Positions 33,803 to 39,176 of a stretch of DNA of 39,176 nt are shown here, piece after piece (positions within the stretch are counted from its first letter, which is position 1; each line of letters begins with the position of its first letter). Source of the stretch: a virus; the IMG/VR virus record IMGVR_UViG_3300002514_000012, positions 57,297 to 96,472 of that record; one strand, written 5' to 3'. The position numbers were made by a program, and so were the translations under genes. The notes beneath the pieces were generated by a model, which saw only the letters and a list, made by a program, of their open reading frames with translations, was not told where the DNA came from and made no database searches.

Positions 33803-34796
33803 GAGTTCACCTACCATTATTAGAGCCTACTTAGAGGAGAAATTCAAAAAGGATTGCAAAATCTCTTCTAACGGTGTAGAGTATATAGTTCCCTCTATCT
33901 TTGTCCAAAACGACTATAAACGCCACATGAGCATTAACGCTGAGACGGGTCTATGGCAGTGCTTTAAATCAGGAGAGCAGGGTAACTTTATTAAGCTGTA
34001 CTCTATTATAGAAAATAAGACTTATGCTAGATCTTCTGCTGAAATGCTCCTAAAGGAGTTGAATGAGGAGCCTAATGCTAAATTCGTCCTCTCAGGCATT
34101 AATGTTCAAGAAGACCCCTTCCCTAGCACCAGTGAGCTTATTCCTGTAAACATAAACTCCTACGCCTCTCCCAATGAGAAAGTGGTTTCTGCGTGGAAAT
34201 TTCTAATGGATCGTGATGTTTTTGATAAGGAAACCTTCGACCCTGAACCGTATTATCTGGCTACAGAAGGTAAATATAAAGATCGTATCCTAATCCCCTT
34301 TAAGGACCCAGAGGGAGGTATGTTCTTTTTCCAAGCTCGCTCCTTAGATCCTTACTCTAACCCTAAATATCTTAACCCTCCCTCTACTGCGGGGGTTCAA
34401 GCCAGAAATGTTCTATACCCTTTCGATGAAGAGGCAGATCACTTATGCATCTGCGAGGGACCTATGGATGCGATATCCTTACAGCTTCAAGGGGTAAACG
34501 CCACCTGCACAGTTGGGAGCAAAATTTCAACTAATCAGATGAGCTATCTTAGAGAATTTGAGGGTACTGTTATTATCGCTTATGATAATGACGAGGCAGG
34601 GAAGAAAGGAGTCTTGCATTATGACAGCATACGCCGCTGCCTTATGATGCCAACATTTGAGGTCGTTAGCCCTCCTCCCTCATACAAAGATTGGAATGAG
34701 GCCCATATAAAAGGCATAGACCTAAAAGGGTGGATCAATAAAACCAGAGTAGAGTATACCTATGAATTAGGTATTTTAAAGGACCTAGGGTATTAA
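33801..34796 (+). CDS. DnaG-type (Toprim) DNA primase with degenerate zinc-finger region (331 aa)
   Basis: The Toprim catalytic centre is clear: E219 in 'LCICEGPMDAISL' and D262-x-D264 in 'VIIAYDNDEAGKKG', which bind the metals used in primer synthesis. The region at residues ~25-70 aligns with the CHC2 zinc-binding domain of primases ('WQCFKSGEQGNFI' versus the usual Y-x-C-F-G-C-G-E-G-G-D-x-I). Only one of the expected metal ligands remains, so zinc may not be bound. No helicase motor follows; a separate helicase is expected elsewhere in the genome. ATG 33801 is preferred to the in-frame ATG 33768 because it gives a normal N-terminus and shares CATG with the nuclease start. No Shine-Dalgarno is seen. 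The stop shares TTAA (34793-34796) with the stop of the convergent 457-aa gene. Confidence 0.85.
   Translation: MSSPTIIRAYLEEKFKKDCKISSNGVEYIVPSIFVQNDYKRHMSINAETGLWQCFKSGEQGNFIKLYSIIENKTYARSSAEMLLKELNEEPNAKFVLSGINVQEDPFPSTSELIPVNINSYASPNEKVVSAWKFLMDRDVFDKETFDPEPYYLATEGKYKDRILIPFKDPEGGMFFFQARSLDPYSNPKYLNPPSTAGVQARNVLYPFDEEADHLCICEGPMDAISLQLQGVNATCTVGSKISTNQMSYLREFEGTVIIAYDNDEAGKKGVLHYDSIRRCLMMPTFEVVSPPPSYKDWNEAHIKGIDLKGWINKTRVEYTYELGILKDLGY
33807..33812 (-). promoter_or_regulatory. Ribosome binding site deciding the nuclease start
   Basis: AGGTGA on the minus strand, four bases before ATG 33802-33800. It favours this start over the in-frame ATG at 33817, which has no comparable site. Confidence 0.6.
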
Positions 34797-36166
34797 GGCT
34801 TCCAGTCTTTAGCATTATGGCTACCCGTCCAAACATTAGTAGTTACATCTGCTAAGTAACCATTAGGATCTAAACCTAGTACCTCAAAGAAATGATTTCC
34901 CCCAGGCCAAGTCCCCGCAGGAAAAGCGTATTTAGGGACCCCAAAAGCATCTCTAGGCTTATAGTATTTACTTAGAGGATTTCTGTCATTTAATATATTA
35001 TGCGCCTCGTCTGTTTTTTGTAACTCTAAAAAGCCTATCATCCACGGATCGAACTCGAAAATGGCTGGCATATGAGGGTGGATTAAATCGCTCATTCTTC
35101 GTTTTTTCGCAATTGTTCGTTGTATGATTTTACTCCAATCAGAGTAGTCGGTGTTCCACCCATGCCTTCTCATATCACCGCCTCCTAACGCAGATTGAGG
35201 TCCAGTATTACCTCCCTGATTAGATATTATTAGATTTGAATTTCCGTCTCCTCCTGGCAACCCCCAATTTATGTCAGCAAGGCTATCCCCTGCTCCGCGC
35301 ACCTCTTCCAAGTAGCTGTCCAGTTCGGCCCACTCAAGAGCATCACTTCGATCCCTAACCCCATCACCCGTAGGACCAAGCTCCAAAGGTATATAAGGGC
35401 CGTTCTCTAATTCTTCTATATAAACAGTATCCTTCATTGCCTCATACCAGTTACGCTCTGTCCCAGGGGGGCAAGGTTTATTTGGATCATGAGGATGATA
35501 GTGAGGGGTACAAGGTCTAAAATGTACCGTAGGACCAAACCATTGCTTAAATTGATTCGCAGTCCCGCAATCATACATAATGTAGTGACCAGCATGTGCG
35601 CCCAAAGATTCTACCAAGCCTTGTTTCATTTCCTCTAAAATCGGTTCCTGCTCGAAAGGATCCATATTCTCCCAGTCATCACACCAACCATCCCATAAGT
35701 GGTTCCTGGCCCCCCAATCCCAATATCTTCCGTTATTCCATCCAGGAGGCAGACCTGCGGCCCCAGGGTTTTGGGCACCCCAACCCCAATTAAGAGCAAA
35801 ACCACAGGACCAGTTTCTATCATTTTCAATCTTCATATCGTCACCAATATAAAGATTAGAACCAATAAAAACTTCTGCCTCAAAGCCTCCACCACCTAGA
35901 TTTCCACGCCCTTCCCACTGAAACCCTCCTGGACCCGCTCCAAGCTCTCCTCCGAACAGATCTTCTGTGATCCAATCCCGATCAAGAACATGACTTCTTA
36001 TTTCTTTTTTTATAAGATCCTTAAGCTTATCTCCTATCGCTACCATTATGGCATTGGGTTTAGCGACTATACCCCTAGAAGTAGCATATGTTGTTGACCA
36101 CTTTATAATGGGGTATCCCCCTGCTCCAGCAGTATTTGGAGTAGTATTTCCTTCGTTGGTTAGCAT
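34793..36166 (-). CDS. Trp/Gly-rich virion-type protein of unknown function (457 aa)
   Basis: Not recognised. Residues 18-75 ('YPIIKWSTTYATSRGIVAKP', 'MVAIGDKLKDLIKKEIRSHV') look like a normal folded domain. From ~80 to ~250 the sequence is rich in Trp, Gly, Asn and Asp, with clusters such as 'FALNWGWGAQNPG', 'NNGRYWDWGARNHLWDGW' and His/Pro-rich 'PHYHPHDPNKPCPPG'. The C-terminal third contains 'HPHMPAIFEFDPWMIGFLEL'. The low-complexity, aromatic middle could be an insertion for binding, in keeping with expanded tail genes elsewhere in the window, but this is inference. It follows the 337-aa gene by 1 nt with no ribosome binding site, so translation is likely coupled. It overlaps the primase stop by 4 nt. 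Confidence 0.6.
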   Translation of the reverse strand: MLTNEGNTTPNTAGAGGYPIIKWSTTYATSRGIVAKPNAIMVAIGDKLKDLIKKEIRSHVLDRDWITEDLFGGELGAGPGGFQWEGRGNLGGGGFEAEVFIGSNLYIGDDMKIENDRNWSCGFALNWGWGAQNPGAAGLPPGWNNGRYWDWGARNHLWDGWCDDWENMDPFEQEPILEEMKQGLVESLGAHAGHYIMYDCGTANQFKQWFGPTVHFRPCTPHYHPHDPNKPCPPGTERNWYEAMKDTVYIEELENGPYIPLELGPTGDGVRDRSDALEWAELDSYLEEVRGAGDSLADINWGLPGGDGNSNLIISNQGGNTGPQSALGGGDMRRHGWNTDYSDWSKIIQRTIAKKRRMSDLIHPHMPAIFEFDPWMIGFLELQKTDEAHNILNDRNPLSKYYKPRDAFGVPKYAFPAGTWPGGNHFFEVLGLDPNGYLADVTTNVWTGSHNAKDWKP

Positions 36167-36167
36167 G

Positions 36168-37181
36168 TTATTTAATATTTAAATACATGGGAGGACTAAT
36201 AATAGTTTCTTTTAGAAGATTATATCTAACTTGAATAGCATAGGGTCCTATAGGGTTACCTAGCGCGGTCGCCTCCAGTGATGCTGTATTCCATAATAAG
36301 GTTAAAGTATTTTCGGAGGTAATATCTATATCCTGAACATCAAGAAAGTCTAGCACTGTAACTCTTGACGGTAGAGAAGGGCTTGGGTGAGAGTTTATCT
36401 TTACTATTCTAAAAGAAGCCGCCCTAAGAGCTACATTCTTCATCAAATTCTTAATATCGTCATCAATATCTCTATTATTAACCGTAATATTTGTAGTAAC
36501 TTTTAAATTTATTTGAGATCCCAAAGTTACCTCTTTATTCATTAAAGAATTTCTTGCTGTGAGGAGAGTAGGTTGGGTAGTAGTATAGAAAGATCCATCA
36601 AAAAGCTCAAAATAGTTTATGAAAGTTTTCCATGCTGAATTTTGTGTTAACTTTACCGTCCAAATATCTGCGTACTGTACCCCTGCTGTGGCTGTGTTAT
36701 ACACATTCCCCCAGGCATCAGGATCACCTTCGGGGACAAAGTTAACGCTTGAAACAGAACTGCCTTGTATCCCGTCTAAGACCGAACAGTACTCCCCTGT
36801 CCCTAGTCTATAAACTCCACTCACCCCTGAACAAGGCATCCCAAAACCAGCCTCGATAGAGGATACTGGGGTTACAACCCCTGTATAATTATCAGTATTA
36901 AATGCAGGATTAATGGATCCGTCTTCCGTTCTAACTTTTCCGTCCCCAGAGGGCTGGAAGAACATTTTGGCTGCGGAGTTTTGCCCAGGGGCAATTAAAT
37001 TATCGGCTCCTAAAAAACTGCTAGGGGAAGTACCTGCGGGTAGAGCAAAAATACCAACCCCACTTATTTGGAAGGGGTCTGCTAGACCCCCATCATTTAT
37101 AAAAAAGGTCCTTAGTAACACTCTATTTAATACATTTGGCCTAGAGTGTCGATCAATAACTTCAATAGTGTTTAACTGCAT
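36168..37181 (-). CDS. Virion structural protein of unknown function (337 aa)
   Basis: Family not recognised. The composition is that of a phage structural protein: beta-rich, many Ser/Thr/Asn/Gly, few charged clusters. Features seen are 'IDRHSRPNVLNRVLLRTFFI' at the start, 'QINLKVTTNITVNNRDIDDD' around residue 230, and a final beta strand region 'AIQVRYNLLKETIISPPMYL'. No Cys-rich or membrane element is present. It has the best ribosome binding site of the block (AAGGAG, 37189-37194, seven bases before ATG 37181), so it can be translated on its own even though the frameshift extension of the upstream gene runs 20 nt into it. Position between the gp26-like gene and the tape measure hints at a tail or head-tail component. 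Confidence 0.62.
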   Translation of the reverse strand: MQLNTIEVIDRHSRPNVLNRVLLRTFFINDGGLADPFQISGVGIFALPAGTSPSSFLGADNLIAPGQNSAAKMFFQPSGDGKVRTEDGSINPAFNTDNYTGVVTPVSSIEAGFGMPCSGVSGVYRLGTGEYCSVLDGIQGSSVSSVNFVPEGDPDAWGNVYNTATAGVQYADIWTVKLTQNSAWKTFINYFELFDGSFYTTTQPTLLTARNSLMNKEVTLGSQINLKVTTNITVNNRDIDDDIKNLMKNVALRAASFRIVKINSHPSPSLPSRVTVLDFLDVQDIDITSENTLTLLWNTASLEATALGNPIGPYAIQVRYNLLKETIISPPMYLNIK

Positions 37182-37344
37182 CTTCTTGCTCCTTCAATTC
37201 TTGTTGATAAAGACGCAAAAACGCTAACCGCTCAGTTCTAGTAAGTGTTTTTACATCCGAATATGAAAAATGTAACTTGCTTACTAGTATATAGGCTTCT
37301 TGAAGTAAGTCTTCTAGTTCAAAACCTTGAATTAGCTCACTGAA
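37162..37344 (-). CDS. Probable -1 frameshift extension of the gp26-like protein (60 codons)
   Basis: An open frame of 60 codons (FSELIQGFELEDLLQEAYIL to KEQEDAVKHY) ends at TGA 37164-37162. Going upstream in this frame there is no ATG, GTG or TTG before the in-frame TGA just ahead of the slip site, so it has no ordinary start of its own. It is exactly in the -1 phase relative to the gp26-like frame and begins at a T TTT TTT heptamer. The peptide is a compact helical sequence (for example 'TRTERLAFLRLYQQELKEQE') and not random-looking. A slip at the heptamer gives a 308-aa product (248 residues of the gp26-like protein plus 60), analogous to lambda gpGT. Possible alternative: start at a rare codon such as ATT, which lacks a ribosome binding site. 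Confidence 0.6.
   Translation of the reverse strand, partial: FSELIQGFELEDLLQEAYILVSKLHFSYSDVKTLTRTERLAFLRLYQQELKEQEDAVKHY
37189..37194 (-). promoter_or_regulatory. Ribosome binding site of the 337-aa gene
   Basis: AAGGAG on the minus strand, seven bases before ATG 37181-37179. It lies inside the -1 frame extension of the upstream gene, so frameshifted ribosomes pass over it. Confidence 0.7.
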
Positions 37345-38087
37345 AAAAAATTTTCAGTAATGGGTAGAGCAATTCGGTTCTTAGTTTTACAGTTATGGCA
37401 TCCGTAGTCTACTTCTGTGTCTATGCCATAATCGCCCATTGTCATTCCTTGAATAAGGGTATGTACATCAGCAGAAGGAAGTTTAGGGATTACTTTAGAT
37501 ATAACGGTTGATTGAGTGCTTCCACCTATCTCAACAACAAATCTCCACAAATTATCTAATACTCCTGTATCTGCATTAAGGTATTTCTCATCCCTAACCC
37601 TGGGAAAGCGGATCTTAGCCTTCTTTTTAATCATCGGCAGATCTACTTCTACAGGATCCACCACCTCTTCACTTAGCCCTGTTACCTTTAACGATGCAAT
37701 ATCTAAAGTTAGAGGGTTAACAAAGTTACACTGTGGACAAGTTACGGAAAAACTATAAGATTTACCATATGACAACTCTCGAATTTTCATAATGATAAAC
37801 ATCTTATCCATCATAAGTAAATCATTTATATCCACACCCTTAACACATCTATGTAGAATAGAATTTACAGGATCGTAAGATGGATCATTTTTAGCAGAAA
37901 GGAGGAACTTCTCATCTTCGAAAGATAGGGGTCTAACAGTCACCGCTTCCGTTTTATTAGCATAAAGAAGACCCTTAGAGGGGAGATCGAATGCTGTTTC
38001 AACCTCAGAGGGAAGCTCAGAGAGGATATCCTCTACCTCTGTATTAATACTATCAACATCAGGCTCTGGCGTGTGAGTTTGTTTCAT
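37332..38087 (-). CDS. T4 gp26-like baseplate/tail assembly protein (251 aa)
   Basis: Pattern matches T4 gp26-type baseplate proteins: 'FDLPSKGLLYANK' then 'VTVRPLSFEDEKFLLSAKND', a D-x-x-x-x-x-x-x-I-R-E-x-SYG segment ('FIIMKIRELSYGKSYSF'), and a Cys pair 'CPQCNFVNPLTLD'. A second Cys pair 'CHNCKTKNRIALP' near the C-terminus completes a possible four-Cys zinc site. In T4 gp26 acts in assembly of the central baseplate hub. Here it is the first gene of its minus-strand block and lies upstream of the tape measure, with two structural genes and a replication island in between. A slippery T TTT TTT close to the stop allows a second, longer product. AAGG lies nine bases before ATG 38087. Divergent from the uvsW-like gene. 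Confidence 0.82.
   Translation of the reverse strand: MKQTHTPEPDVDSINTEVEDILSELPSEVETAFDLPSKGLLYANKTEAVTVRPLSFEDEKFLLSAKNDPSYDPVNSILHRCVKGVDINDLLMMDKMFIIMKIRELSYGKSYSFSVTCPQCNFVNPLTLDIASLKVTGLSEEVVDPVEVDLPMIKKKAKIRFPRVRDEKYLNADTGVLDNLWRFVVEIGGSTQSTVISKVIPKLPSADVHTLIQGMTMGDYGIDTEVDYGCHNCKTKNRIALPITENFFSVS
37344..37350 (-). other. Candidate -1 ribosomal slippery heptamer T TTT TTT
   Basis: In the zero frame the mRNA reads GAA AAT TTT TTT TCA GTG AGC TAA, so the last T of AAT plus two TTT codons make a perfect X XXX XXX heptamer three sense codons before the stop. Starting about 13 nt downstream a 5-bp stem TTCAA/TTGAA with loop GGTT (37318-37331) is possible but weak, so any stimulator may be something else. 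Confidence 0.55.
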
Positions 38088-38118: not shown

Positions 38119-39176
38119 ATGAGAATAGAAGTAGATACTTTAAAGTCTAAAATACATACGGACAACCCAAAACTACTTGATGCCCTAATCTCTTTATATA
38201 GTTTTAATGTCCCAGGAAGGGAATTTTCTCCTGCATACAAGAATCGGCACTGGGACGGTAAACAACATTTTATAAATAAAGCTGGAGTGTTTCGCACAGG
38301 GCTTCTTCAGCAACTGTGTACTGATCTTAAAAAAATTGATTGCGTTCCCGAGATAGAGTATACAGTCCCTACTGAAGACATAACACTCTCTGAGTACGGC
38401 ATCGAAAAGTTCACTCTTTACGATTACCAGGAAGAGTTAATTCAGATTGCTTTAAAGGAGAAGCGTGGTGTAGTAAAATCTCCCACGGGTTCAGGGAAAA
38501 CTTTAATTATGGCTGCGATCATTAAAGCTTTAAGTCCTCGAAAAATGGTAGTGCTGTTTAACTCAAAACAACTTCTAACCCAAACATACGAGTTTCTTAC
38601 TGAAACTTGTGATATGCAAGATATTGGGCTGTGCTTCGGGGAAGGATACATTTATGGTGATATCATGCTATGTACCGTTCAGAGTATCGAGAAGATTTTA
38701 GATACTCACTTAGATGGAACTGAAGTTCTTATGATTGATGAGTGCCATGAATTCTGCCAAGGGAAAACCACTCTCGCTGCCATAAACTCTTTTCCTAAAG
38801 CAACATACCGCATCGGATTTAGTGCCACCCCGCCAGAGGATCCCATAAGACTATATAACCTACAAGGAGCATTAGGACAAATCTGGGAAGTGGTTAAAAC
38901 GAAAAACTTAGTAGATCAAGGCACATTAGCTAAACCTATTATTCAACTAATTAGAATGCCATACACAGCATCAGGAGTAGACATGGATATGCCATACTTA
39001 GATGTTTATGAGGAGTTCATCGTACATAACGAGGGTAGAAATAATAAAATTAAGGAACTTGTAAATGAGATTAAAAAAAACACCCCAAAAGCTCGCATAC
39101 TTATACTTACCAAATCACTTGATCACGGAAGATCCTTGGAAAACTTACTTGGAGGCAGCACCCAATTTCTTGAGGG
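38119..39176 (+). CDS. uvsW: UvsW-like DNA/RNA helicase, superfamily 2 (3' end cut by window edge)
   Basis: 352 codons are open to the right edge; the C-terminal helicase lobe is missing. The N-terminal accessory domain (residues ~1-100) has 'NRHWDGKQHFINKAGVFRTG', the W-D-G-(K/R) pattern of T4 UvsW. Then come Walker A 'SPTGSGKT' (121-128), motif II D-E-C-H (207-210) and motif III 'SATP' (235-238). In T4, UvsW unwinds R-loops and recombination intermediates, shifting replication from origin- to recombination-dependent mode. The start at 38119 is the natural one for the domain, but no Shine-Dalgarno precedes it; the bases before it are very AT-rich. Divergent from the gp26-like gene. Identification as UvsW-type is strong; orthology is inferred. 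Confidence 0.88.
   Translation, partial: MRIEVDTLKSKIHTDNPKLLDALISLYSFNVPGREFSPAYKNRHWDGKQHFINKAGVFRTGLLQQLCTDLKKIDCVPEIEYTVPTEDITLSEYGIEKFTLYDYQEELIQIALKEKRGVVKSPTGSGKTLIMAAIIKALSPRKMVVLFNSKQLLTQTYEFLTETCDMQDIGLCFGEGYIYGDIMLCTVQSIEKILDTHLDGTEVLMIDECHEFCQGKTTLAAINSFPKATYRIGFSATPPEDPIRLYNLQGALGQIWEVVKTKNLVDQGTLAKPIIQLIRMPYTASGVDMDMPYLDVYEEFIVHNEGRNNKIKELVNEIKKNTPKARILILTKSLDHGRSLENLLGGSTQFLE

Follow-up and report, generated by a model that had tools for sequence, protein, structure and literature searches.

The gp26-like gene of an uncultivated T4-like phage ends in a run of eight T residues, beyond which an open reading frame continues in the -1 frame, and the question that this locus raises is whether it yields one protein or two. 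The window analysed here is the whole stretch of 39,176 nucleotides taken from IMG/VR virus record IMGVR_UViG_3300002514_000012 (positions 57,297 to 96,472 of that record). The locus is very probably the tail assembly chaperone (TAC) pair of a T4-like myovirus, predicted from sequence comparison to encode a 251-aa short form (TAC-N) and, by -1 ribosomal frameshifting, a minority 308-aa long form (TAC-NC). The region comprises:

37332 to 38087, minus strand: gp26-like protein of 251 aa, predicted short tail assembly chaperone, TAC-N (PF12322, phrog_150)
37344 to 37353, minus strand: putative slippery site A AAT TTT TTT, made of the overlapping zero-frame heptamers A AAT TTT and T TTT TTT (read directly from the sequence)
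37162 to 37353, minus strand: -1 frame ORF of 63 codons, putative gp51-like C-terminal domain, TAC-C (phrog_634 and a profile of relatives)
36168 to 37181, minus strand: next gene, 337 aa, no family match, overlapping the end of the -1 ORF by 20 nt
38119 to 39174, plus strand: UvsW-like helicase running off the window end (phrog_16, ResIII, UvsW_N)

The 251-aa protein belongs to the gp26 family, matching PF12322 (T4_baseplate) at 66.4 bits against a cut-off of 24.5 and phrog_150 with an E-value of 7.9e-21, and its gene is the sole PF12322 match across the 110-kb record. The T4-like assignment is supported by the UvsW-like helicase (phrog_16, E 1e-50; ResIII, E 1.8e-23; UvsW_N, E 5.8e-5, just under its cut-off), which adjoins gp26 and faces the opposite way. 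Directly downstream of the chaperone locus lie the 337-aa gene and a 457-aa gene rich in Trp and Gly (34793-37181, minus strand), neither of which gave a clear family match in Pfam or PHROGs. A candidate tape measure gene of 546 aa (32201-30561), with no PHROGs match, is found on the same strand about 5 kb downstream.

Read in frame, the 3' end of the gp26-like gene is GAA AAT TTT TTT TCA GTG AGC TAA, with the whole T run at 37350-37343 on the minus strand. The two zero-frame heptamers start 19 nt (A AAT TTT) and 16 nt (T TTT TTT) before the stop, and the second ends three codons ahead of TAA, as the preliminary description of this DNA had stated. Immediately ahead of the T run a TGA interrupts the -1 frame, the overlap joining the two frames is only 19 nt long, and both canonical heptamers fall inside it. 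The ORF of about 60 codons announced in that description proves to be open for 63 codons (37353-37162) and does stop 20 nt inside the next gene, at 37162 against an ATG at 37181. Slippage at either heptamer would add 60-61 residues (248+60 or 247+61), and the lengths originally given, 251 aa for the protein and 308 aa for the fusion, are borne out by the frames. When 100 ORFs of at least 120 aa were surveyed over the whole record, with the gp26-like gene counted twice owing to a 3-kb overlap between pieces, three distinct genes combined an X XXY YYZ heptamer at most 20 codons from the stop with a reachable -1 frame of at least 30 codons; in the other two that frame is 208 and 322 codons long, as though it entered the following gene. 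Enrichment of T8 runs was considered as evidence and dropped, since the window holds fewer such runs than expected (2, against an expectation of 5.06).

Homopolymer runs are error-prone, and one extra T would join the frames, so that the true gene might be a single fused ORF with T9, split by a sequencing or assembly error. This danger had been recognised from the start. Over 6.7 kb, the T8 run included, the sequence agrees completely with another IMG/VR contig (L001), and chance assembly error is therefore unlikely, with the proviso that the two assemblies may share a sample; moreover, the split recurs in more than 150 relatives, where the run is a different and shorter one. An error in the run is thus extremely improbable.

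The identity of the -1 ORF was addressed by profile comparison. In all six frames of the 110,937-base record it is the single match to phrog_634, the 'baseplate hub assembly catalyst' (gp51), with an E-value of 0.0025. A profile built from 142 distinct -1 extensions, taken from other loci, scores it at 19.4 bits, the best of 2,000 shuffles reaching 13.0. The ORF can be aligned to the gp51 parts found in cyanophages as well as to the C-terminal end of T4 gp51 (YSLNSISKMIPAER vs FSYSDVKTLTRTER). Because pairwise identity to gp51 is weak, at about 20%, the assignment rests jointly on profile, position and frame; on these grounds the -1 ORF is taken to be the gp51 C-terminal domain, its match being weak but unique in the record. 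T4 itself offers the key to this arrangement: T4 gp26 is a PF12322 protein, and T4 gp51 consists of a PF12322 domain followed by a phrog_634 domain, i.e., it is the fused form, from which it follows that in T4 the short and the long form each have a gene of their own. A single comparison of T4 gp26 with T4 gp51 shows them to be related (E 2e-6).

Relatives were gathered as 160 IMG/VR loci retrieved with two cyanophage gp26 queries, plus named phages, and 182 loci were examined. A T TTT TTN heptamer stands just before the gp26 stop in 174 of them (T TTT TTC in 171, T TTT TTT in 2, one of which is the identical contig L001, and T TTT TTG in 1). It normally begins 10 nt before the stop, and the A AAT TTT TTT of the window corresponds to it. 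Of 155 non-redundant heptamer loci, three are truncated by the contig end; in all 152 that can be evaluated, the -1 frame runs for 50 or more codons without a stop. Both the run and the -1 ORF, whose fate in homologous loci was the check proposed initially, have accordingly been kept, in marine T4-like phages as well as in other T4-like relatives and in jumbo phages. The Phe-Phe pair of the site is spelled TTT TTC in 158 of 163 loci, against about 20% expected from the other Phe codons in these genes (27% TTC), and in 160 of 163 a T stands directly in front of it. Together, these figures point to selection acting in the relatives on the nucleotide string of the site, beyond the protein alone, with a binomial p-value for the codon pair overstating independence because the loci are related by descent. 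The gp26 of the window is at most 29% identical to those of its relatives. Closer ones were sought via gp25, which returned the one identical contig and two distant ones and no close non-identical relative; a scan of genome contigs found no relative, and comparing the window region with named phages at the nucleotide level found no match.

The same loci bear on a different explanation, in which the gp51 part is a separate small gene translated by coupled re-initiation at the gp26 stop, with no frameshift. About 60 of the 155 relatives do have an ATG, GTG or TTG in the -1 frame no more than 8 nt from the stop, some as TAATG or TGATG, and databases list gp51 as its own gene in Syn1, S-RIM8, phiM9 and P-HM1. 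In Vibrio phage D533 (L178), gp26 ends CTT TTC AAG TAATGG, without the T6 heptamer and with a -1 frame ATG that overlaps the stop, and this phage has perhaps switched to coupled re-initiation. However, the heptamer and its codon choice are conserved with or without a nearby start codon, and T4 makes the fused form from one gene. The -1 ORF of the window, for its part, has no plausible start, since no ATG, GTG or TTG precedes codon 46; the initial statement that the ORF has no ATG, GTG or TTG start holds up to that point, and TTG occurs at codons 46 and 53 of 63. At the gp26-like stop the -1 frame offers only ATT. Coupled re-initiation is thus highly improbable in the window phage, while it may operate in relatives whose gp26 stop has a start codon beside it.

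Frameshifting in the relatives appears to be assisted by further signals. In 74 of 155 relatives, most relatives being marine, GAGGG precedes the heptamer by 9 nt; the 50 nt downstream of the heptamer fold better than shuffles (mean z -2.67, 60 loci), and the best single downstream helix averages 17.5 versus 12.5 after codon shuffling. The stems, located 5-60 nt 3' of the heptamer (loci L013-L172), are strong and lineage-specific, with up to 16 consecutive paired bases in L104 and L110. RNAalifold on 40 aligned relatives returned no common structure because the helix register differs between lineages, and the evidence therefore speaks for some stem in most lineages but not for a single conserved one, with no covariation claimed. 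Downstream of the window site no significant stem was detected (z about -0.2; best helix 13.8 versus 12.5 ± 2.1 shuffled), and no GAGGG is visible upstream of its T run. Stimulators of this kind are not obligatory for -1 frameshifting. The slippery run of the window is enclosed by a predicted structure:

37337 to 37360, minus strand: 10-bp hairpin with a UUUU loop (UUACUGAAAA UUUU UUUUCAGUGA), -9.7 kcal/mol

This hairpin, spotted after the fact and possibly fortuitous, has a z of -3.2, with 0 of 200 shuffles as good, and the T8 run sits in its loop and 3' arm. A run 8 T long and an RNA hairpin able to enclose it are also what would favour stuttering of RNA polymerase, which would add one U to some transcripts and give the same 308-aa protein by normal translation. 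Yet the relatives keep only T6C at this position, beside stimulators of a ribosomal kind (the downstream stem-loop and GAGGG), and T6C is too short for efficient polymerase slippage. The ancestral mechanism is therefore most likely ribosomal, and transcriptional slippage as the source of the fusion is improbable. A mixed scenario can also be envisaged, in which this lineage has kept the chaperone pair and swapped the usual signals (GAGGG, T TTT TTC and the downstream stem) for a longer run, T8, embedded in a hairpin. Recoding would then rely in part on slippage of the polymerase, or else on the tandem slippery positions alone; we regard this scenario as doubtful.

Some phages have the gp51-like extension in frame +1 (or -2) and not in -1: LIS04 (L004), SP-15 (L006), Streptococcus phage GXN1 (L008) and four Streptomyces phages (L184, L199, L200 and L201). 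The first three share NCC CGA TTY near the stop, and the Streptomyces phages have TTT CGC/CAG GAA CTC TGA/TAA with a +1 ORF of 71-76 codons. Profile matches of the tested +1-frame extensions are weak, about 11 to 17 bits, some of them within the shuffle range. If these cases are confirmed, the same chaperone pair changed its shift direction between host groups.

For the window phage, conservation of the site and frame, the gp51 domain and the T4 pair strongly favour the frameshift put forward in the preliminary description, a -1 event joining the gp26-like protein to a C-terminal domain in the manner of lambda G/GT. In this -1 ribosomal frameshift, most ribosomes would end at the zero-frame stop and release the 251-aa gp26-like TAC-N, and a minority would slip back one base on A AAT TTT TTT, bypass the stop and append the gp51-like helical domain, giving the 308-aa TAC-NC. 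If the pair works as lambda G/GT does, its N part would coat the tape measure protein, and tail tube subunits would be recruited by the C domain, which is rare. We infer the slippage in the window phage, its frequency and the chaperone role, the last of these following from the lambda G/GT model and the literature on T4-like TACs. The AlphaFold model is of modest confidence (pLDDT 69), and its named viral fold matches are mostly gp26 and baseplate-hub proteins. Neither sequence nor fold searches of the PDB returned a significant match; the HK97 tail chaperone 2ob9 has the highest TM-score by target length (0.55) among the fold matches listed, at a non-significant E-value of 5.3, and is only a hint in favour of a tail chaperone.

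The hint of novelty for gp26-like genes that accompanied the initial proposal is not supported. As cited in the PRFect paper (PMC10885494) and the phage Adele paper (PMC12846349), the TAC genes of T4-like phages were treated by Vladimirov, Gautam and Davidson (2022, Virology 566:9-15). The former cites this work for some T4-like phages that, in place of frameshifting, have a short TAC gene and a fused long one, and the latter for poly-T -1 signals in T4-like TAC-N genes; the present finding is, in view of these citations, a divergent addition to the known TAC-N/TAC-NC kind. The identification of gp26 and gp51 as TACs rests on the T4 gene and domain comparison made here. The abstract of the Vladimirov study is said to describe frameshifting as apparently conserved in several T4-like groups, with T4's own group using separate genes. 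What the window adds is a divergent uncultivated T4-like member without the stimulators of its marine relatives, and the frameshift device looks ancient in the T4-like phage group. There are consequences for annotation, as hundreds of cyanophage and T4-like genomes list gp51 as a stand-alone 'baseplate hub assembly catalyst', an entry that most likely represents the C-terminal part of a frameshifted tail chaperone. The catalogue of sites and stimulators, together with the apparent change of shift direction, is now directly testable.

Among known systems, the nearest are the T4-like TAC-N/TAC-NC pairs of Vladimirov (2022), which, as cited in PMC12846349 and PMC10885494, likewise comprise short and long chaperone forms, with a poly-T -1 site ending the short gene in some groups; the window phage differs from them as a divergent uncultivated member with A AAT TTT TTT rather than T TTT TTC and with no clear downstream stem. 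The TACs of Vandenendeviridae and Andersonviridae, as described in the phage Adele paper (PMC12846349), also use a -1 frameshift, with an invariant GTTTTT ending TAC-N and an open -1 frame of more than 200 bp, although these are different phage families, likened to the window by description. In lambda, too, a shift into the -1 frame shortly before the short gene ends (G/GT) adds a C-terminal domain, and the two forms serve the tape measure and the tail tube, but lambda is a siphovirus whose pair lies directly before the tape measure gene, and the likeness is drawn with no claim of sequence similarity. Finally, T4 and the window phage share both domain architectures, PF12322 alone and PF12322 followed by phrog_634, which T4 encodes as two separate genes on opposite strands with no frameshift, whereas the record of the window phage shows a single gp26, with a -1 ORF at its end.
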